DNA of 64,000 nucleotides from positions 27,926,790 to 27,990,789 of the forward strand of contig CM066913.1 of assembly GCA_033964015.1 (NCBI GenBank), read 5' to 3'. Shown here piece after piece: positions 4,346 to 39,600 of this stretch. The notes under the pieces are model-generated. The model searched no databases and had not been told where the DNA came from. It saw only the letters and a list, made by a program, of their open reading frames with translations. Each line of letters starts with the position of its first letter. The stretch's first letter is position 1. The stretch is from Scolanthus callimorphus. Taxonomy: Eukaryota; Cnidaria; Anthozoa; Actiniaria; Edwardsiidae. Position numbers and translations under genes: made by a program.

Positions 4346-5640
4346 TATAAAAAGGCGGTATTCGCCATGCTAAAATCCTAACGGAAAAGCGCGCGCTAAA
4401 TACAATAAGCGCGCGCGCTCTAGATGAGTTCGAACAGTCAGAGATAGTGGAAATTGATGTTGAGTCCACGTGGGCTAAGAGTTCCCAAGTTAAAGATAAG
4501 TTCCATCTCCTGGTGTTTGCGTTGGTAGTTGTCCCCGTGGCTTAAACAGAGGCTGCATGCCCTAAGATTGTCAATAGAGTGCGATGCAGAGTTAAAATGT
4601 TCGGCCACGGGGAAACCAGGAGATTTGTTCTTGATACTGCGAAGGTGCTCTCCAACTCGTTCGCGTAAAGAACGACCGGTTTCACCAATGTACAGAGAAG
4701 TACAACGGGTGCAGCTGATGCAATACACCACATTCTCAGACCGACAGATGAAGCGATCGTTGATGGTGTATCTGCTTTTGGGACCCTGTATGGGAAGTGG
4801 TCTGAGAAGTGGTGTGTTTGCACGTCTGATAGCGTGGGCGGTTACACGGGAACGTTCCGGCATCCGATGATGTTGACGAACCGACACAAGAGTGCACGAG
4901 GATATCCCTGAGATTCTTGTCGCGGCGGTAGGATATAAGTGGCGACTCAGGGAAAATCCTGCGTGTGTCTGGATCAGTGGTTAAGATGTTCATGAGTATC
5001 TGTTTGGTAATGGCGTTAAAGTTGTTGTAAGTACCAACGGAACGCGGTCTGTGCTGTCCTCATGCCGGGATGCCGTAAGGGCGTCTTGACGTGTAACTGT
5101 TAAAACTCTGTTAAGGTCATTCTCGAATTGTGCAGCTGGATAACTACGAGCTGTGAAGAAATGTTGCATCTCTCTAGACTTGACGAGGAAGTCGTTATCA
5201 TCTGAACAGAGACGGCGGAGACGGAGAAACTGGCTGTATGGGATAGCCCGTTTACAATGGCCGGGGTGGTGTGACGTAAAGTCGAGGTAGTTGTGTGTGT
5301 CAGTCTCTTTGTAGTATATTGATGTCTGAGTGCTGTGATTGGATATTCGCAACTGGATGTCGAGAAAAGGCAGTCCGAGTTCACTGATGGTAGAAGTAAA
5401 CTCCAGGGCAGGATGGAAATTGGAGACGTACTCTATAAATCCTTCAAGATCACGACGATCACATTGCGCAGCACCCACTACGTCATCAATGTAACGCTTC
5501 TGAAGTTGAGGGAAAAAGCCGGTGAACTGCGTGCGGATTTGCTCTTCTACATATCCAACGAAGAGACATGCATAGTTAGGGCCCATTTTACTGCCCATAG
5601 CAACACAACTTCTTTGTTTTGAGATGCGCAGAACAGCTGC
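4310..5640 (-). pseudogene. 5'-truncated Penelope-like element: RT C-terminal half plus GIY-YIG endonuclease
   Basis: On the minus strand, the RT palm motifs VAMGSKMGPNYACLFVGYVE and YIDDV (catalytic Asp pair, about 5493-5479) are followed by the thumb and a linker. The GIY-YIG domain comes next: ENVVYCISCTRCTSLYIGET, GRSLRERVGEHL and AEHFN, ending at the stop near 4438. Frameshifts near 5030 and 4790 split it into three open pieces, so it is not functional. The fingers and N-terminus are missing. The family copies itself by target-primed reverse transcription. Confidence 0.9.
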
Positions 5641-6541
5641 GCAGTTGCGTGACAGCCTCCCTTTAAACGTTTTCGCCATCCCCCGGCCCCTATTTGACCT
5701 AGTAGAAGATTTTTAGCGCGCCCGAATTTTGATAAACGCATTTAATCAAGCCTCAGAGAAAGGGTAGACGAACATTCCATTTTTTGTGTTTTTGTGTCTA
5801 GTAAACAAAGCCTGTAGGTTTTACTATCAAGCGCGCAACTGCGCGCCGCAAATTACGAAATTATTATTATTCATTTGTGTGAAGCGGTCCAAATGAGGAA
5901 TTTGTATACTTGTAACGTCGAACTCACGCTTACCTATAGTGGTCTTCTTTCGAACATAGTGACTGCCTGCCAAGCCTATCACTGCAGGGCATTTTTTGGA
6001 GAGTTTATTTTTCCTCGGCAAGATACACTTGTTCTTGTAAACGGCGCGAGGGTAGTTTCTTCGTTGCGTGAGTTCTCACCGACTATATATTTAATGTTAT
6101 TTTGCGCGCCGAAATTTTTATTTTAATAAAAGTATTAATTAAAAGTATTTGGTGAAGTGAAGTAGAAAAATGCAAATGATAGAAAAGTTGCTGGAATAAC
6201 TACTTCAGACATCTTTTTAACTAGAGCCCAAGCCATGTCTTTGTAAGATTTTTTTCCAGCTTGAATCTCTGCAATATTTTGTTTTTTGAGGATTGGCCTT
6301 GCGCAAATGTTTTATTGGGAATTGCCACCCCCCTCCCCCCAACTTCTAATGGTCCACCCCTTATCTTCTAGGTTAAGTCCCTCTCAATGTGTCTGCGGTG
6401 GTGTTCATTTTGGATTATCACAAAATTCGTCACTGAAATAAAGTGAAGTGTATTGTGTATTTACTATAAGTGCGCCCGGACTAGGATTTTCAATAAAACA
6501 GTTATTGTCGAATAAACAGATACTGACTGGTTTTATTGCAG

Positions 6542-18600: not shown

Positions 18601-21600
18601 GTGATATTGACCCTGCACAATCTTTTGTTTCATGCTTATCTTATATGCATGCCTGGTTGTACACTGAATCTTACTGGCTGAATTTTGGTACTTATGTACC
18701 GTGACCCTGCAGAGACAAAAGGATTCCTCTGAAAAAGTGAACAAAGAGATAGTACAATAACAGGGTGTCAGGTTTCCTAACCATTCCCCGCTATAAACTA
18801 TGGGCAAATCAAGTACTGTTATCAGTGAAAGACCGTGGTGAGTGATCATTTTGACAAAGGATGTGTATAACAGTATTTAAAGTGACTCCAACAAAAGTAA
18901 ATGCGTTTTTCAGTAATTTTTTAACTCGCTCTCATCGCGTCAAAAATGGTCGGATATTTTTGAGATTTGGATATGTTAAACCTCAATCGTTGGCACTTTT
19001 AACTATTTGTTCGATTTATTTTTAAGAGCCGCATTTGCTTATGCGAGCCGATGTTCTAACAGTAGTATTTTTACAAAAGTCCCTCCTGTGCGAAAAATCT
19101 TCGCGCAATTTTTCTGAAACTTTTGATTTGGTGTTATTCGACCTTTGTTTTTGTCATTCAAGTTTGAAGAAAATCCTACTAGCGAAAATTGCAGTACAGA
19201 TAGAGCCAAAAATGACCATGAAAGTGGAGCAATATCAATGTGCCCTTCGAAATTAATCCTTTTTTTTCTACGATTTAAGAACTCATCCATTCGCCATTGT
19301 TCCTGAGGTTCGGTTCAAAATTTCATGGCCGTAGCTGTACAGATAGATTCGCGATTACTATTTATTCAGGAGCAGATAGAAGTTAAAAAGTTAGAAAAAT
19401 GAAAACAAACCAAATTCCTTCATTTCTTGAAGTTGCGCGCAAAAAAAAACCGCAATTGTTTATCACCGCCTCTGAAATCTGGTCTGTCATTTTATATCTA
19501 GCGCCGATCGAGATAAACTAAATAGCTCTATCTTGTACTGCAATTTTCGCTCGTAGAATTTTCTTCAAACTTGAATGACAAAGAAACGAAGGTCAGAAGT
19601 TTCAGAAAAATTGCGTGAAGGTTTTTCGCACAGGAGGGACTTTTGTAAAAATACCACTGTTAGAAGATCGGCTCGCATAAGCAAATGCGGCTCTTAAAAA
19701 TTAATTGGAGTAAATAGTTAAAAGCGCCAATAGTCGAGGTTTAACATATCCAGAGCTAAAACCACATTTGACGCGACGCGAGCGAGAATGAAAAACGCGT
19801 TTCCTTTTGTTGGAGTCACCGTAACGTTGTGTATCAGGTTGGATTATTGTCCCGAGTCAGACTTGCTAAACATTTCCCAGACTACACTGAGCGACTGCGG
19901 TGTGTCCAAGCTCGACTGTGGGCTATTTCCGTCCTTGGTGAGTTTTTGTTGTTAATTTTCTGCTAGCTAAGGATCGTTATTGTTCATTTACTTAAGGTGA
20001 TTCCGTTGAAAAGTTGTACTACCTAGATTTTTTTCAAACTTGGTACAATTGATGCCCATGCAGAGGACATTCAAAAATGCAATAAACAGATGGGGTCACA
20101 ATGCTCGTTTCTGCGCTGCTGGACCGTTATTTACGTGATATTTGACTGTTTGACGAATAGGCTGAATTCCACTGGGAAAAACTGCCCATTGTTTGGTGGT
20201 TTGTTTGTACCGAATCTAGACCACATTGCAATGCAATCCACGACTTCCGGTGTATCTCAAAAAGGCCTATTGTGTTCGAAATTCAAACATTATGAAAAAG
20301 GTTGCTTTTCCTCACCCATAATAAGGATATTAGTTGGTATTTTAACTTTGTTTAGGTAATTATCTAATATTCTCTCAGGAGTTTGATCCGATTGGGCTAA
20401 TGCTCACTCCACGCTTGCTCCAAAGTACATAGTTTTACGCACATTAGGCCGAAAAAAAAAACTACTACCTAAATTTTTTTCTGCTTAGAATATATTGTCT
20501 GTAGCGGTATGATGGTCGATTTCAGAGAAAAAACATTGGGGATCACCATCCTTGTTTTTCTGTAATATCACTAAAACCATAAATCGCGCGCTTTTTATGT
20601 TGTTTGTTTGGCCTTATTTTGCTCGAGCGCGCACTTTTCAACGGTTATTTCGAAAAAATGCCATTCTCGTACCCAGAGCTCCCCGGCTCGTCTGCTCGCA
20701 GGGGACGTCCATTTGAGGGCTGTCGCTGATTGGCTGATTTTGAGCGTTGGAGCATGCGCTGAAAGGTCTATCTCTCAGCGGCTCTGTATTAAATCTCGCG
20801 CATGCGTCAGTGGCTGTCGCAAGAGCCTCCCCCGCGAGGTAACGAGCCGGGGAGCTCTGGGTTCGGGAATGACAAAATGCGCGCGCGACCGTGCGCAAAA
20901 CAGATGCGCTGTGCAATTCAGGGGAATCACCTTAACTTACTTATGAGATTCCATAATGTAATCGTCACCCCTTTAACCAATAATGTTGTGTGATTTGTTT
21001 AATTAGTTTACTCTAATGTCAGCCAAGACATCCAGAAATCCCTCATGTACCAGGGGTTTGTGGAGGAAGTGGTAGATCTGCTGAAAGTGGATGACTCCAG
21101 ATTACTGGTAGGTGTTGGTCAGCAGCTGCACGACCTACCAATCTGAAACAATAGAATATAGCTGTTTCATCAGGATTTCCAAACACCGGGAAACTGGTTG
21201 AAAAGGCAAAGCCAAATTTTGATTGAGCTAGACAACCCTAAACGACCACGCTTCTACGTCACCGTTATCATGGAGGTCGGGTTCAAATCCCGTTGGAAGC
21301 CTGAATTCTATTTTTTTTTTCAGGTCTTCTAATTTCTGGCGATCGCTTAGATTGCTTCTTGATAATTTCCTTTCTATAATACTGTATAACAACTCTTTTT
21401 AATTCGTGACAGGATATTAAAACTGCTGCCATCAGACTTCTCACCTCTGTGATTCACCTCCAGTACAACCCCAGGTATGGTTTTTATCATTTGTTATCAA
21501 ATTTCCACTTTTCAAATTTTTGTCCTTCACTGAAAGGGCTATTTAGTGAAGCATTGAAGCATGTCAGTACAAACGTTGGGGAAATCGGAGCACGTCCCTG

Positions 21601-24600
21601 ATCGGAGTTAGTATCACGTGAAAATCGGGCTACTATATAGTCCTAGGGATCAGGTTCCGAGGTAGCAATAATGAACATTGGCTACCTTAATATAGGAAAT
21701 TAAACTAAAGTGATATTTTGTGCCTTTTTTAAAGTGCCACTCAAGGCTGAAAAAAAAAATAAGGAAGAAAATGACGTCACAACAAGACTGGGGGAAAAGA
21801 GGCCAACAATGTTCTATGTATAATTCTGTTTGGGATAGTTAGATTCACTTCAAGCTTGGTAATAACAAAGAAGAACCAAGACCTCATACATCCGTATGCT
21901 AATTAGTGTTTCCATAGTAACGCGTTTGGCTCTAGAAGTGATTCCTGGAAAAATAGGTAAAATCTGTGAAATATTATGAACGTCTTCGAAACTTCTTGTT
22001 TTGTTTGTCAACACAACTCAGAGTATTTTTAGTCAGGCGGCTAAACTCAAATTTTATTGCGAATTGTGCGTTTTCTGATAAAAGCATGAAACTTTCCAGG
22101 ATGAGACTTCAGAGGGTACTTGTGAATTTTTGATTGGGAGGCATCTCTGAAAAGTCATTTTTACAGCAATATTTTAGACAATAAGGGCGGCCATTGTTCA
22201 GCCGCCATCTTGTCCTTTGTTATTCGTGAGTTTCGTGGCACTTGGGCTCTTATTCTACGAGATAAATTTATAGAGTGTAGCGCCAGATAGACAAAACTCT
22301 AAAGATTTATGGCGAAGAGAACGATCATTGGAATATGACAAGTGAACATTTGATATCTAAATTACTTTTCTAGATGTTTTCTTCCATTTACGAAAACATG
22401 TTTTCGAATTCCCAGTCAGACACTTTTCCGGAGATAGAAAAGGAAAAGAAATCAGGAAAAATATCGGGATTCTTCCGCACACAGGTTGATATCAACTTGC
22501 GACATAGCTACCAGAATATAGACCATATGTGCCAAGGTATTTATTGCCTGTGAATGAAACAAAGTTGCAGGGATTTTGCTGCAGAGTCTGGAGAATCACT
22601 TCACTGACTTGTACATTAAGTGCCGCAAATCTCATGAATAACAAAGGACAAGATGGCGGCTGAACAATAGCTTTGCAAGTTATCTAAATAATTCCTGTAA
22701 AAAGAATTTTCAGAGATGCCTCCCAATCAAAAATTGAGGAGTACCCCTAGGCCAATCATACTGGAAAATTTCATGCTTTTATCAAAAAACGCACAACCAG
22801 TTGGCTTAGCCGCCTGACTATTTGGCACAGTATTGTAGCACTTCACTTGTACGTGAATAAGTTTCAGATTTTTCGTATTTTTCTAAACAGACAGCCCCAG
22901 TGCCAATAGTGTTACCATGGAAACGGTAATAAACATGTCAGAAGTTTTGGTCCTTCTTTGTTATTACCAAGTTTTAAAGGGGCACTCGCACGCTTGCCTG
23001 ACAAGCAAATCATTCAAATCGCAATCCAATTCCATCCTCTTTATAATAGACAAAAACACTATAGATTTGTATTGATTCAACATTTAAAAGGTTATTTAAC
23101 AAACCTGGAATGTTATTTTGGTTTTTTGACAGGTTGTACAAAAATTAAGCGTGCGAGTGCCCCTTTAAGTGAATGTAACTATCCCAAACAGAATTATACA
23201 TAAAACATTGTTGGCCTCTTTTGCCTTAGTCTGGTTGTGACGTCATTTTTTGCTAATTTGCATAAGTAAAAATCTTGAATATCTCTGTAACCAAAAGAGC
23301 TATGAACGCGAAATAAACGACATTGTTCCTTATTTTGAATGTGCAATCAAATAAGCCATTAAACGTTTAGCTATGAGTGGCACTTATTAAGGTAGCCAAT
23401 GCTCATTATTGCTACCTCGGAACCTGATCCCTAGGACTATATTGTTCAAAATGCATGCAAAATTACAAATTCGCGAATGCCCCTCTGTGACGTAGCACAT
23501 GCTATACTGGGAAAGGGTTAAAGGTGAAATTGCAGCCAAAAGTTGATAAAGATTCAAAAGTCTGCTTGAAAGTCCCTTCCTTGGTTGTTGCATCTTACGT
23601 GACCACCAGTACAGCAGATTCTATTGCTTATAATAATAATGTATACAACTACTCCCAGTCACAGACTGGATTTCAGCTGCCAGGAACCGAGAACCTTCCA
23701 TTAATTGATTTTCTTACTGCTAGATTGAACACCCTAGTGGAGTATGCAGGCATTGCTTCATATCATGGTTTTCTTCCCAGCCTTATGAGGACGTGCATAC
23801 AGACATTAACCGGTATTTAATAAAACATGTGAAACGTATGTGTTGCTCTTGGCCTTGTCGTGTTGGCCTTGTCTTGTTGGCCTTGGCTTGTTGGCCTTGG
23901 CTTGTTGGCCTTGTCGTGTTTGCCTTGTCGTGTTTGCCTTGTCGTGTTGGTCTTGGCGTCCTTGTTGGCATTGTCGTGTTGGCCTTGGGTTTGGCATGTT
24001 GGCTTTGGCTTATTGGCCTTGTCATCCTTGTTGGCCTTGTCTTGTTGGCTTTGGCTTATTGGCCTTGTCATGTTGGCCTTGGCGTGTTGGCCTTGGCGTG
24101 TTGGCCTTGTCATGTTGGCCTTGGCGTGTTGGCCTTGGCTTTGGCTTGTTGGCCTTTGCATGTTGGCTTTGGCTTGTTGGCCTTGTCGTCCTTGTTGGTC
24201 TTAGCATGTTGGCCTTGTCGTGTTGGCCTTGTCGTGTTGGCCTTGTTGTGTTGGCCTTGTCATGTTAGCCTTGGCGTGTTAGTATTGGCGTGTTGCCCTT
24301 GGCTTGTTGGCCTTGTCATGTTGGCATTGGCGTGTTGGCCTTGTCGTGTTGGCCTTGGATTGTTGGCCATGTCTTGTTAGCCTTGTCTTGTTGGCCTTGT
24401 CGTGTCGGCCTTGTCGTGTCGGCCTTGTCGTGTCGGCCTTGTCGTGTCGGCATTGTAGTGTCGGCGTTGTCATGTCGGCATTGTCGTGTCGGCATTGTCG
24501 TGTCGGCATTCTTGTGATGGCATTGTTGTGATGGCATTGGCATGTTGGCATTGGGCTGTTCCAAAAAAAATCCGTACCCCCCTATCGAGGAACTCCAAAT

Positions 24601-27600: not shown

Positions 27601-30600
27601 CAAACCCCAGTTACGGGAAAACATTCTATTACACCATCATTGCTATCACAGTCATTTAGCTTGTTAATATGCTCATGGAAATGCAACCTTTTATTTGTCT
27701 CTAAAGTGACCTATAATCGGCCAAATGAAATTAGGGCAGTTGTGAAAACTTATATTTTCAAAAGGGCAAAACATGATTCACTGTTCTATTGCTCGTTGGC
27801 ACTTTTAGCGAGAGCTACAACTAGTATAAATATATATACATGGCTGTCGTGAAACCGATCGCAAAGTAATTATAAACAATTATTGGATGAGGTTTTTGTG
27901 ATTTCCAGAATAAACATTGTCGAGACAAGGGGAATAAGGCGAGGCCGTAAGGCCGAGCCTGATTCCACTTGGCGAGATATTGTTTATTCTGGAAATCACA
28001 AAAACCGAATTCAATAATTGTTTTATTATACATTGATTCAGTGAAAATACTTTTTTTCTGTCAAGCAATTTCTTTTACACAAGCGCCTTGTTAAATAGGG
28101 GAAACATTCAAGGGCTGTAGTCCCATGAAACATTGCGCGCGTAGGATCAAGAATCAGCATGCTGATTCTTGGAGACCCTTAAAGTGCGTGATTCCCAAAG
28201 TAAAGCGCGCGCTTTTAGCCAATCAGAATCGAGATAGTGAGTACAATGTATAATAATACCAATTCTGAACAAAACCTATAGCAGTAATTACAAAGTAATT
28301 GCGAATTACTCACGACAGTCATGTGAAATCTGCTCTATTGCATGAAGACCAAATTTTTATACTGAGCATAATTGACTTAAAAGCGAACTAGTTTTACCTT
28401 TTTCGTTGTTTGAAAAAAATCGTCTTCGCATGACTTGAGAGCAATGAGCCCACCTTCGAACAGAAATTCAAGCTCTGTTTTCCCGTGAAAGCCCTATTAT
28501 GAGAGATGTCTATTGGCTGATTGCAATTTTAAACCGCACCGGAGGGTCGAGGACCTCCCTTAAAAATCCCCACTCCCTGGAATTTCCACTCGTGAATCAG
28601 ACCCTCTGTCCTGGAATTTCCAGCCACATAAAGGACCCCCTCCCCTGGAATTTCCATTTTTTATGGCAAATACCGCTGGAAAATCTATTTTGGGATAAAA
28701 TGTCCCTGGACGTCCCCTTTTTACCCATCCCATGACGCAAACTCGTCAACAAACTTGTCAGGAATGCAGTGTTTACTATGCAGACGCATAGCCTCGCTTC
28801 TATGAACGCTAGGATAGTTTAAGTGTGACATAAAACATAAAAATAGGAGAAAGTCCCAATTCAGTCTCGTTACATCTCGTTACATCACGCTATCATCTCG
28901 TGCTCTCAACTCTCCTGCGTGTGCTTCCACAACTAGATATGCGCTAAGCATGGACTATTTCTTTATTACTCTTCAGCATGAGGTAAAGATCTGTATACCA
29001 TTCCACGGAGGAATCCTTTCGGCAGAGCTCCCACAGTCCTCACAGGATTCTACAACCAGCATGGAGATCGGCGAAGCCGCCTCACCGTCCAAGATTGTTC
29101 CTATGGAGACAGAGCAAGCAGGACCCAGCAGTACTTTGTCAGAGGGCGGAATGGAGGAAGAGGAGAATACATCAAGTGGCATTGCTGTGCCCCTGTTGCA
29201 CAAGAGGTTAGCCTGCATAGGTGTCTGCCACAGAGAGCAGCACTTATAAAGGCCTTGCTGAGTTTCTTGAAGAAGGTCATACCAGATCCAGCTTTCTCAG
29301 AGAGTATACGAAATAGTAAGTGATCAGGTCTTCGCATGTTTTATTCACTTTCCTTGGTGCCTTTCCCTTCCATCTTAAGTACAGTAGAACTCTGGTTCCT
29401 ATTGCTGTTTTGTTCCCCGCATACTACAGAGATCTTCAATAGAGACTTTAAAAATACGCATTTCAGTTCCTTTCTCTTTCTTTCACTAATTTTGAGTAAA
29501 ATATATCTCGCTAAAAGGGCCGAATAAGAAACAAATTAGCCGTCAATAATCTCGAGCCTTAGTTGTCTTCGAAATGATATTTTGCGAGATTACTTAAAAT
29601 TTTAAGTTTGCGTTGATATTCATAAAGGAAAATCAAAAGCTTTTCCTGGCACTAAATTTGGCAGAGAAGTAGTTGTGTACCTTGGGATGAATTTTTCGGT
29701 CAGAGATTTCGCTAGACTTACAAAATCCATTATTTTCCAACAAAAGCTCATGATGTAAATGCGTGAAACGCTGAGTTTGGGGTATATCCGCGCCAAAAAC
29801 TGACCAATAACAGCCTTCGCCGAAGACTGCAACAGCTCGCATTTATTACCAGAATAGGGAGTTTAGATTCAAAAGAAGAGAAGAAAAGGTCAGGCTTCAA
29901 AAAAAAAAAAAAAAAAAACAGAAGTGAAGATTTCGCTTCGCATTTAACAAGTCGCAATACAACAACTTCAATTCGTGAAGATGGTTCAAGGATTTTGCAG
30001 CCGACCATTACTCAAGCGGAAAGAAGTACAGGAAAGCAAAGTTCTGCGCTGCCTGGTTCAAGTTTCTCGCTAACGTTTTGCCGGATTTCGCAGAATATGT
30101 AAATTAGGCAAATCTAAGAATAACTACACTCGGGAAAACGGGGTGAGTCGAGAACAATGCTCATTTCACGCTTTTACATCATTTCAAAAGCAAAAAAGTC
30201 ATGGAATAACTGCAAATTGGCTTGGAGAATTTTCTCCAAACTTCGTCTTAGACAATACGATTAGCGTTAGTAGTATACAGAATAGCGGTTTTAGCGCGGG
30301 TGGATCGGCGGATCCACCGTGGAAGTGGAATTATAGCTATATCAGGACCGGAAGTGATGTCATTCTCGAAAACAATAGGTTGTCCAGACTTGTCCGCACA
30401 TCAGATGGACTTGACCAGACATGCTCAAACCGGAGATTGGGATGATAATTATTTAAGAGGGTTCGGGTTTAAATATCTTTTAGTTATATAATATGTTTGG
30501 TTAATTATTAAAGGTTTTATGGGATAATTAGTAGTTAGAAATTATAGTATACTATTTTAATACCAATAGCTAGATAAGAAAAACAAATATGAATTATATA

Positions 30601-33600
30601 TAAATTATATATAGCATAGTTGTAGTTAATAATATTAAAAGAAGGAAACATGGGGTTTGATGAGTACGAAATCGTACTGATTTTGGGGTTAAAACATGAA
30701 AACAAGGCTAAAGCCCAGCGAAGCGTGGACACGCTTTGGTTACCTTTTGGTTTCCCTTTGGTTACCCCGCGGTCACCCTTTGGTTTCGGCCTTTGGTTAC
30801 CCCTTGGTTACTCCGTGTTTATCCTTTAGTTACCCTGTAGTTATAAATGTCCCTCCGTAAAGGGTTCTAAAACGGTCCTGTGAAGACGAGGAGGAGAAGG
30901 AGAAGGGCTATTCTGTGAGGATGAGGAGGGGAGGAGGAGGAGTGCTATTCAGTGAGGAGGAGGGGCAAACAAAGGGACATTATAAAAATGCTTCTTAATA
31001 TTCTACACTGCTGCGGGCGTGACGGGCGCTATAGCTGGCGTGACGGGCGCTGTCGCGGGCGTTACGGGCGTTGTAGCGGGTGTTGACGGGCGTTGACTGG
31101 CGCTGTAGCGGGCGTTGATGGGCGTTGTAGTGGACGTGACGGGCGTTGTAGCGGACGTGACGGGCGTTGACGGGCGTTGTAGCGGACGTGACGGGCGTTG
31201 ACGGGCGTCCTTGCGGGCTCGGGTGCTACGGGCGTCTTGCGAGCGTCCTGCGGGCGCTCGGGCATTGCTGTGATGTATTGCGGAATCCAGGGTTTCTGTG
31301 GGGTTTCTCTAGGGTTTCTGTGGGGTTTCTCTAGGGTTTCTGTGAGGGTTCTGTAGGGGTTCTGTGCCCGCTATAGCGCCCGTCACGCCCGCAAGACGCC
31401 CGCAAGACGCCCGCAGCAGTGTAGAATATTAAGAAGCATTTTTATAATGTCCCTTTGTTTGCCCCTCCTCCTCACTGAATAGCACTCCTCCTCCCCTCCT
31501 CATCCTCACAGAATAGCCCTTCTTCTTCTCCTCCTCGTCTTCACAGGACCGTTTTAGAACCCTTTACGGAGGGACATTTATAACTACAGGGTAACTAAAG
31601 GATAAACACGGGGTAACCAAAGGGTAACCACGGGGTAGCCATGGGGTAACCACTGGGTAACCAAAGGGAAACCAAAGGGTGACCGCGGGGTAACCAAAGG
31701 GAAACCAAAAGGTAACCAAAGCGTGTCCACGCTTCGCTGGGCTTTAGCCTTGTTTTCATGTTTTAACCCCAAAATCAGTACGATTTCGTACTCATCAAAC
31801 CCCATTTTTCCTTCTTTTGATATTATTAACTACAACTATGCTATATATAATTTATATATAATTCATATTTGTTTTTCTTATCTAGCTATTGGTATTAAAA
31901 TAGTATACTATAATTTCTAACTACTAATTATCCCATAAAACCTTTAATAATTAACCAACCATATTATATAACTAAAAGATATTCAAACCCGAACCCTCTT
32001 CAATAATTATCATCCCAATCTCCGGTTTGAGCATGTCTGGTCAAGTCCATCTGATGTGCGGACAAGTCTGGACAACCTATTGTTTTCGAGAATGACATCA
32101 CTTCCGGTCCTGATATAGCTATAATTCCACTTCCACGGTGGATCCACCGATCCACCCTGATCCACCCGCGCTAAAACCGCTATTATACTACTAGCGTTAG
32201 GTTTGTTATTTTAAAAGTTTAGATCGAATATATGTATCGTTTCTATAGAAACTCTGATTACAGTAAATCAGCATGATCACGAACTTAAATCTTTCTTGGC
32301 AGCAAGTAGCCAAAATATCAAAGTAGCCATGCACTTAACAAAATAACCACTGCATGGGTCCTGTTTCACCTGAGGCCTGCCTCATCTGAGTTTGCAAATG
32401 CTATATTTTGTTTCAGTAATGGATGGTTCTCTTCCAAATTCACTGAAGTACATTATCAGCAATGTAGAATACTATGGACCAGTCTTGTTTCTTGGAGGTA
32501 AGTTATTTGTAACAGAGTTATTACAACCAAGCTAAGAACTACGATTTTCCTACTTGCCTGAACAAACTGACAATTATAATCGCAGAAGTCGACTAGACGT
32601 GCGATTTTGCACTTACGATAACTGCGATTTTTATAATTCTGGAACTCCCACTTTACATTTCCGAACTCCAACTGCGTTTTGTCTTCCGTCCATCAAACAC
32701 GACAGGCGCATGGACTTTCTCTAAGTTTTGTTTGCATTTTATGGTGGAACATGTGGTTTTAAGGTGGCTCCCGAGCATTTATTGCAGAAATAGACCTCAA
32801 CTTCTAGCGTATGTTTGACCTTGAAAAAATCTTCCGATTTCCATAATTGTTCTCACAGAGCTTAAGCAACCTTTGCACTACCAAATGGTGTAGTTCATTT
32901 GATATATTAAGCTCGTCTGTTTGGGATATTTTAAATTTTCCAAAGGAGGTGTTTTTAGAATAATTGTTATAACTTGAAAATTCGACCGTGAATGATCTTA
33001 CTATCAGCTAAAAACGCATCCATAGTAATAAGGGTTTACTCAGAGAAATGCCCAGGTCGGCTTTTCCCATGCGATTTACCTATAAAATGTCTTATTCCGC
33101 TTCTGTTTAGTGTGCCGAGCGCGGATATCAGAAAAGTAAGAGAGCTCTTCAGGATTATATCGGCTAATGTTCACTCTTAATTATATAAAAGAGAAAATAG
33201 AATCGAGTATCTACAGAAAGCGATATTTAATAAACGAATGAGAGCAGCTTCTTGTCCAGAATGTGCTGTTGCTATAATATTCAATTCGAGCTCGAAATAA
33301 CTAAATTGCTGGAATTGTTTCGTAAGTTTCTTTCGTGAGAGGTAGAGTACAACCAACTGAGAAGACTTACCAAGTTTGGGCTCGGTCTTTCCAGTACTAT
33401 GTTGAGAAACATTATCCCAAAGGAGTCACTGTTTCGTTGCTCCAACACAAACGCCAAGAAAATCCATATGTTATGAGCGCAGTGTTCTCGCCTCAGTGCA
33501 CTTCGCTAAATTCTTCATGATGACAGTTTAAGGTGACTCATTCGAAATTCAAAATGCACCCAACTGTGTCTTTAGCGCAAAGTTGCGACGGCAAACTCAA

Positions 33601-36600: not shown

Positions 36601-39600
36601 GCAAGGCCAATCATTGGCTCTCAGTTTTATCTGATCGCCACAAAATTTTGCGTACCTACTGGCCAATGATTCTATTTTGTAATAAATAAAACGAAATTAC
36701 GATTACAATAACTTAACCGGTGCAAAATGCTTGGAAACAAAACGTTCATTTTTGCTTTCTTCGTGATTTTTCAAAAAACAGAGTTGCAAATGACTTGGTA
36801 TTGCATGTACGAAGTCCCTTACAATTCTACTTCATTGAAGCACAAGGTACTCTCCATTGAGACCACACACTCCGAGAAATTCACAAGGCTCAAAATTAAA
36901 CACAGAAATATTTGTCCCATACGTATTTAGCTAATGCGTATAGCTAAAATCGTCGTACTAAATATTCGCACTCACCATATAGTAGTCAACTCTTTCGCTA
37001 AGGCCATGATAGAGTTATCTCGAACAAACCATCGTTATGCCATAATGCACACATCTGTTGCCAAACTATTGAGAATAATAGATAAAATAAAGCATTCTCA
37101 TCATATGTCCGTACCAGACCATTCTAGCCGCCCTCCTGCGAATGCGAAGTAAAGGAAACGAAGATGAAGTACCTTGCTAAGTCTGAGTCATTTTCTACCA
37201 TACGGGTTCGAGAGCTTAGCACGCAAAGTTGGCCATTTTGAGACTTTGTAAAACGCATTGATTGCAGCAGACAGAGAAACACCAGCTATTTGTTGATGAA
37301 GGCATCTGTCGCGTGATGAAGGGATTTGTCGTCGTCTCAGTTTCGATCAGTTGATCATGCTACGGGTTAATTAGAATTGAAATTAAATTCTTGCTGCTGT
37401 AAATGTGGCACATTAAATTCCATTACTCCTGAGGGACTGAAGAACAAATAAAAAAAAATAATAACAATATTCTAAACTCTATGTAAAAACCTATATAAAT
37501 ATTCATTCATAAATATTAAATATACAATACATATATTTTATCAAATTTAAGAAATAGATTTCGACTTGCTTTGAGAAAATATGGCAACAAAAAGTCTCTA
37601 GACCAATCAGATTAAAGAAGAACAATGGAGGGAGAGGTTCCCCACATACAAAGTCTTTTAAAATTGCATATCCTGTCTGTGAGTACCACATGTGCTTATG
37701 TCTCCCTAAAATTCCTCAAACGTTTTTCTAGCAATAGTGATTTTACTGATTTTTATGTCTAAGCCAATGAATTTGCCTATATTTTCAATAAAAATTAATT
37801 GAATTCCAGCATGCTTTGCCGTTGGCTTGCCTAGTTCTTATACGGACCATTACTTAAATATTAGGGAGTTTTGGATTTTTCCCGCACAGAGAACAGTTCT
37901 ATTGATAGTACTGTAATTGTATTTGTGTTGCCGTTGTCATACACTTGTCTAGTGACAAATTGTCGGTCCGTTACAGCTACAGATGTGGTGACTGTCTATG
38001 TGTTCCATGAGCCCTCGTTACTCTCATCCTTACAAGATAATGGCTTGACTGGTGTGGTTATGAAGTCATTGGTGGTCAAAGATGTGAGTACAAGGTTTTG
38101 TTTGTGTCATCTACACTTGCGCGAGATAACCTTCTTAAAGTGCTACTTTGCCGTTAAGAGGAAGATAATGTGCAATTTAGCGAGGTCAATGACGAAATTT
38201 TATCCATTAAGTATTTGGCAAAACATGGATTGATAGTGGCGTTTCTCTATGAATATAAGTCTAATTGGAGTTTGTGGCGCGCGGTCCTGGGTACGAAACG
38301 GACTAATTCCGGACCATCGCCATACAAACCTCTCTATTTTTGGCCGTTTTGATTGCCCCCAAACGTGTGTAAAAATATTTTTAAGCTCAAAATTGTCGAG
38401 GTGTGGACTGATTGTCTTCGCTGGATCAGATTTTCTGGCACGTAAGCTCGTGGGGGAGGCTCTGGTGACAGCCACTGACGCCTGGCGAGATTTAAAGGCA
38501 CATCACCACCGGGAGCCTTTGTGCCCCGTTTTCTTTTGTTTTCAAATTGATCCATTGTTTTTCGGGTGCTCTGATTGGCTAAGAGTCCGCAAAGGCTCCC
38601 GGTTAGTGATGGGCCTTTAATACAGAACCGCTGAGAGAAAGACCTTTCAGCGCATGCTCCAACGCTCAAAATCAGCCAATCAGCAACGGCCCTCAAATTG
38701 ATGTCCCCAGAGCCTCCCCTGCGAGCAGACGAGCCGGGGAGCTCTGGGTACGAGCATGTGTTTGCTTGTGTTGTGTTAGATCCCTGCCATGCGCGAGGTG
38801 CTGTCAGATTGTGATAGTGTTTGCTTGTGTTGTGTTTGCTTGTGTTGTGTTAGATCCCTGCCATGCGCCAGAACTGTCAGATTGTGATATTGTTTGCTTG
38901 TGTTGTGTTAGATCGCTGCCATGCGCGAGGTGCTGTCAGATTGTGATAGTGTTTTCTTGTGTTGTGCTAGATCCCTGCCATGCGCGAGGACTGTCAGATT
39001 GTGATATTGTTTAATTGTGTTGTGTTAGATCGCTGCCATCCGCGAGGTTCTGTCAGATTGTGATATTGTCTGCTTGTGTTGTGTTAGATCCCTGCCATGC
39101 GCGAGGTGCTATCCTCTTTGCCAAGCGTTCTGAGTGCCCTTGTCTTAACAATCGAGGACTGCAAGCCTTCATGGACTGCCAGCCATTCGACAAACTGTTC
39201 AGAGTGATGCTATCCCCAGAGTATTTACCAGCTATGCGGAGGAAAAAGGCCACTGAAGAACTAGGTATTGTTTCTGCATTGCCTCTAGGGCATCTTCAAG
39301 GTTGGAGTATACAGGGCAAGCCTCAATCCATCGCCAAGGGTTATATTGTTCGGCTTAGGACTCACAACACAAAATGACAGCTCAGATGTGTTTCCGACTC
39401 AACATTGATCTGATGCAGTTTCCCACATATAATAGTCTAACAGCATTTCCTTCTTGGAAAACCTGTGATTCCGATAAAATTTTGTTTGACGTACGATTTT
39501 GTACTTTTTTTTTCGAAGGAGAGACAGCATCAAACTTGGGCATAGCCATGGATGAGCTAATGCGACACCAGCCAACCCTGAAAACGGATACGATGAAAGC

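Follow-up and report, generated by a model that had tools for sequence, protein, structure and literature searches.

The window, by which we mean the whole 64-kb stretch of DNA analysed here, carries exons of HUWE1, and one of these exons is preceded by a tandem array of 3' splice sites. HUWE1 was identified by collinear similarity, in that 27 introns and 26 internal exons (54 to 352 nt, 3,799 nt together) were matched to HUWE1 of Nematostella and Actinia, and human HUWE1 chains in the PDB align over this stretch with chain residues 558-683 (E 3.3e-56). Among four proteins compared, the fourth of which is unnamed, the summed match scores are highest for Nematostella, followed by Actinia and then Acropora, which places the animal among the cnidarians, close to sea anemones; further protein searches gave a best identity of 80% over 82 residues, and at most 77% among the best 120 of 196 matches. 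All 27 introns are GT-AG, although 26 of them were chosen with a GT or GC donor and an AG acceptor required, and a 102-nt intron was added by eye. Exon 15 (37977..38083, + strand), delimited by spliced comparison with Nematostella and Actinia, ends in ...SLVVKD with the donor GAT/gtgagt in phase 0. It is followed by intron 15 (38084..39087, + strand; 1004 nt, phase 0), which contains the array, and by exon 16 (39088..39264, + strand; 177 nt), which ends in ...EELG with the donor TAG/gtattg. We keep the name exon 16 from the preliminary description, but the number counts exons recognised within the window and does not give the exon's place in the gene, since residues 1-148 of the orthologues have no match in the 64-kb window. 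By homology the junction reads ...SLVVKD/IPAMREVL... with the acceptor at 39088 in phase 0, and the protein at this point is 90-93% identical to sea anemone proteins. The gene, the junction at 39088 and the decoy character of the upstream copies, as first proposed, are correct, the junction being placed by orthologue proteins with a phase-0 intron.

The array (38759-39109) comprises six copies of a 58-59 bp module, in the order branch-point segment (GTCAGATTGTGATA), TG-rich tract, acceptor AG and an exon head of up to 23 nt, and copy 6 is the true HUWE1 intron/exon junction. The motif TGTGTTGTGYTAGATCSCTGCC has six matches in the 64-kb window, all within 38767-39096, whereas 100 shuffles give 0.00 on average, and TRF run on the window returns an array of period 59 with 4.7 copies and 88% matches. 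These two results confirm the five look-alike acceptors in tandem before exon 16 that the preliminary description had noticed, and the exon-like starts that it gave for copies 1 to 6 (38780, 38854, 38912, 38971, 39029 and 39088) are all correct. Its spacing of about 58 bp applies to the last four intervals, but the first is longer (start to start 74, 58, 59, 58 and 59 nt), and the most distal copy would add 308 nt, not 310, to the exon, the others adding 234, 176, 117 and 59 nt. The repeated part of the exon does reach the 23 bases claimed for it, but the head is identical to exon 16 in copy 1 alone, with 4, 1, 2 and 3 differences in copies 2-5.

All copies lie on the + strand. Copy 1 (38759..38817) has a tract, an AG and a 23-nt exon head, followed by a branch-point segment that is the one serving copy 2. 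A partial tract duplication of 15 nt (38818..38832) precedes copy 2 and lengthens its tract. Copy 2 (38833..38890), copy 3 (38891..38949), copy 4 (38950..39007) and copy 5 (39008..39066) follow, and copy 6 (39067..39109) consists of the true acceptor and exon head. The sequence of copy 4 is TGTGTTGTGCTAG, with CTAG in place of TTAG. Branch-point candidates were ranked with a simple score of our own, built on the yUnAy consensus. By this score, a candidate GTGAT lies 24 nt from the end of the AG in copies 3 to 6, and at 39 nt in copy 2 because of the extra 15-nt tract piece; copy 5 has in addition a higher-scoring TTAAT at 14 nt. Copy 1 is without a good candidate (best 4.5, compared with at least 6.5 elsewhere in the array). 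Copies 2 and 4 also carry a TAG, 2 nt past the candidate branch point.

The direction of change at the junction was judged from homologues, of which we used 240 among the matches listed (the best 120 of 651 and the best 120 of 196). The junction is covered by 228 of the 240, and 219 of these 228 align without gaps to a distance of 5 residues from it; the remaining nine have six insertions (5-29 residues) and three deletions (2-4). Six peptides derived from the array occur in none of the 240 homologues among the matches listed. Because nearly all of the homologues that cover the junction are ungapped there, and all lack the array-derived peptides, we treat 39088 as the ancestral acceptor and regard the five upstream ones as derived. 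Pairs of copies diverge by 2-14%, the dimer of copies 2 and 3 is repeated in copies 4 and 5 at 93%, and the copies nearest to the true junction are copy 1 (1/43 differences) and copy 3 (2/43).

A MITE-like element (38437..38758) adjoins copy 1 with its right end. Pieces of it are matched by blastn to 20662-20871 at 84-87% identity, and its left end is shorter than that of this relative at 20.66-20.87 kb. At 38491-38620 there is a nested 120-bp element with inverted ends (38496-38615) and TTTAA on either side, and the relative at 20.7 kb has the corresponding empty site, GATTTAATACAG (read by eye). These flanks, together with the empty site, suggest that the nested element is a TTAA-targeting (piggyBac-like) MITE. 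The adjoining element, the duplicated branch-point segment, the lack of a branch-point candidate in copy 1 and a frame break in exon 16, discussed below, were all absent from the preliminary description. Other repeats are found elsewhere in the window. A HUWE1 intron contains a large inverted repeat at about 30250-32210, with arms at about 30.25-30.84 and 31.59-32.21 kb (by eye, from reading frames) and short tandem repeats between them, and it resembles a foldback element. A 14-bp unit, TTGGCCTTGTCGTG, is repeated over 705 bp at 23849-24553, in an array that begins 37 nt past the donor at 23812. On the - strand, frames at 4438-5712 resemble, by eye only, a Penelope-like reverse transcriptase that ends in a tail of the GIY-YIG type.

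The strength of the six acceptors was scored with a profile built from the other 26 acceptors in HUWE1, which covers neither branch points nor enhancers. Copies 1-6 score 3.84, 3.84, 3.84, 4.27, 4.11 and 4.65, so that the true site is highest and the acceptors are, as had been claimed, nearly alike in this gene-derived profile. The profile is small and weakly selective, with 7-10% of the window's + strand AGs matching or exceeding the six; an AG inside exon 16 (39232) scores 4.89, above the true site, and one at 38161 scores 4.30, above all five decoys. For this gene the scores are modest, the true acceptor outscoring just 8 of 26 others (leave-one-out). With so little difference in score between the decoys and the true site, the decoys could be used to a substantial extent.

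Splicing to a decoy would produce an exon of 236, 294, 353, 411 or 485 nt, compared with 177 nt when the last copy is used. The preliminary description expected such products to be mostly out of frame, which is an understatement: two of the five added lengths are multiples of three, yet all five readings run into a stop codon (38885, 38944, 39002, 39061 and 39131). Every one of these stops lies inside the lengthened exon, 379 to 133 nt upstream of its donor, as in poison splicing, where a stop precedes the next junction by a good distance. All of them also precede the frame break in exon 16 and are therefore independent of it. In animals, messages with such premature stops are degraded by nonsense-mediated decay, and decoy messages should meet this fate. 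As a control, decoys were invented at the same distances before other acceptors of the gene; of these 116, 110 ran into a stop, and in 16 of 20 introns this held for all five positions. Premature stops are ordinary for intron sequence and, given this control, those of the array are no sign of design.

Nor does the position of the array point to design, since in 19.6% of trials a 351-bp array placed at random covered one of 54 junctions. Of 23 arrays in the window, merged by hand from 40 TRF rows with a 26-bp ATT run left out, one overlaps a junction. Across the five decoys, 16 of 295 sites depart from their consensus, and none of the AG letters has changed. Without selection this outcome has P = 0.57, so AG retention in the five copies is no sign of selection for the decoys, a reading that was rejected. 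In the exon heads of the decoys 10 of 115 sites differ from the consensus; for the tract, NAG and branch segments together the figure is 5 of 175, a count that left out one tract column with one more difference. This leans towards constraint on the signals, although several of the changes are shared through descent, and the differences from consensus across the five decoys show no clear signature of selection.

We consider it probable, if well short of certain, that the array arose when a complete 3' splice site was duplicated in tandem, that it is tolerated because the last copy wins, and that it is mostly a neutral passenger. One tandem duplication would have copied the branch-point segment, the TG-rich tract and the AG along with the opening 23 nt of the exon, and dimer-wise expansion afterwards would have led to six modules; copy 1 probably lost its branch-point segment, or had it interrupted, through the MITE-like element. 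Near-equal acceptors would compete in the RNA, and copies 2-6 look like five self-contained competitors because each has a candidate branch point followed by its own AG. In the scanning view, as set out in PMC1431707, the first AG after the chosen branch point is used and AGs closer than about 12-15 nt can be bypassed; the TAG in copies 2 and 4 falls within this limit and would therefore be bypassable. We infer that the last copy serves as the acceptor of most transcripts, since its product, with an exon of 177 nt, is the sole readable one. Exon length would favour it as well, the decoy exons of 236-485 nt being set against internal exons of 54-352 nt in the window. Choice of an upstream copy would produce a longer exon with a stop and a message that is degraded, and the cost of the array would be some unproductive splicing, leaking into decay.

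One alternative is that the decoys are used on purpose to turn off HUWE1, as a switch made of poison acceptors, perhaps via factors that bind the UG-rich tract. Factors that bind UGU are exemplified by CELF. The stops in 5/5 decoys, 133-379 nt before the exon donor, and the near equality of the six acceptors are consistent with such a switch, as is the composition of the tracts, with 6 G at -20 to -5 in the true tract and 5-6 in the decoys, compared with 0-4 in the other 26 acceptors. Against this, the invented decoys stop in nearly every case and the real ones bear no clear signature of selection, and we regard the switch as unlikely. The regulatory role raised in the preliminary description finds no support in these tests, given that the stops are ordinary, the position is not improbable and a complementary sequence in the next intron, considered below, is not energetically special. 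There is a similarly small chance that the array reinforces splicing, the repeated branch-point and tract modules concentrating splicing factors at a weak acceptor so that the last AG benefits. The low rank of the true acceptor is in keeping with this, and the exon 15 donor (3.52) scores above only 2 of 26 others. In copies 2-6, however, the first AG met after the candidate branch point is the copy's own, barring the bypassable TAG of copies 2 and 4, and simple scanning would therefore pick that upstream AG instead of benefiting the last.

That the array is an assembly artefact, or that this HUWE1 is a dead gene copy, seems to us quite improbable. In its favour are one-base frame breaks in 2 of the 26 internal exons: in exon 16 at about 39138-39141, where SAL is read in one frame and CLNN in another, and in exon 13 at about 29190 (29186-29200), beside a run of C. 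Since both are one base long and lie beside short single-base runs, they suggest read errors more than decay, and we conclude that they are probably errors of the reads or the assembly. In the remaining 24 internal exons the frame is open, without stops, and the phase is kept; with two breaks in 3,799 nt, true gene death is a less likely explanation of the exon 16 break than read error. The divergence of 2-14% between copies is unlike a misassembled repeat, and the GT-AG introns also argue against a dead copy, within the limits set by how junctions were chosen. The possibility that the decoys rescue the frame of exon 16 was rejected, since making up for a one-base loss would take an added length of 1 mod 3 and the decoys add 2, 0, 2, 0 and 2 mod 3. 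It is scarcely credible that acceptor choice is Dscam-like, with a single complement in the following intron pairing each time with only one tract. In favour of this, CACAACACAA, which is complementary to all six copies, has a single + strand match in 64 kb (39363-39372, in the next intron), though the word was picked only after an earlier analysis had flagged it. As a docking RNA, however, it is energetically ordinary: pairing energies span -16.3 to -18.3 over the six copies, the consensus tract gives -16.5, and of 2544 windows taken every 25 nt, 6 bind the consensus as strongly or more so. Sampling every 5 nt yields more such windows, one of them in exon 17 at about 39555 (-20.2).

The array represents a natural competition experiment, in which six near-identical 3' splice sites stand in a row before an exon of a conserved gene and differ mainly in position, and all but one have their own candidate branch point. 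Counts of junction reads would show how far position alone decides the choice of acceptor, outside the usual model animals, and the array could also show how much splicing noise cells tolerate. A more speculative idea, to which we give little credence, is that the array acts as a brake tuned by copy number, the number of poison acceptors setting the share of HUWE1 pre-mRNA that is spliced unproductively. If this were true, the dose of this ubiquitin ligase would be tuned by differences in array length from one individual to another. Unless the decoys prove to be used in RNA, we would rate the importance of the array as moderate.

Several known systems share features with this array. Close tandem acceptors lie within about 12 nt of each other, a range that the spacing of 58-74 nt in HUWE1 exceeds, and new introns can arise by tandem duplication. 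NAGNAG and other tandem acceptors, as abstracted in PMC3250501, likewise have several acceptors competing for one exon, but there they are a few nt apart, whereas in the HUWE1 array each widely spaced copy has its own tract and every decoy leads to a stop. Poison exons that act as switches through nonsense-mediated decay, such as that of ATM in the excerpt of PMC4702124, likewise introduce a stop by splice choice; in HUWE1, the exon would instead be lengthened via duplicated acceptors, and decoy use is a prediction. Intron gain in Drosophila, for which the record of PMC2809761 names tandem duplication, also involves duplication across splice signals, but in HUWE1 no new intron results and the acceptor junction itself is duplicated.

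Among the matches listed, which comprise open-access titles and the starts of abstracts, none reports a tandem array of 3' splice sites, and the nearest known precedent in these partial texts is the minisatellite of human IFI6 (6-16/G1P3), which supplies several splice donor sites. Turri, Cuin and Porter reportedly described in 1995 that this minisatellite provides multiple donor sites. The excerpted accounts have repeat units of IFI6 used as splice donors (PMC4526556; IFI6 entry also PMC3618361), with alternative messages arising from these units, whereas the upstream units of the HUWE1 array are candidate acceptors. The likeness is that a tandem repeat sits at an exon/intron junction and several units offer one kind of splice site, and in HUWE1, too, there are tandem units at a junction, each with a splice site. 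The difference is that the units of IFI6 offer donors, while those of HUWE1 offer acceptors, together with a tract, a candidate branch point and the head of an exon.
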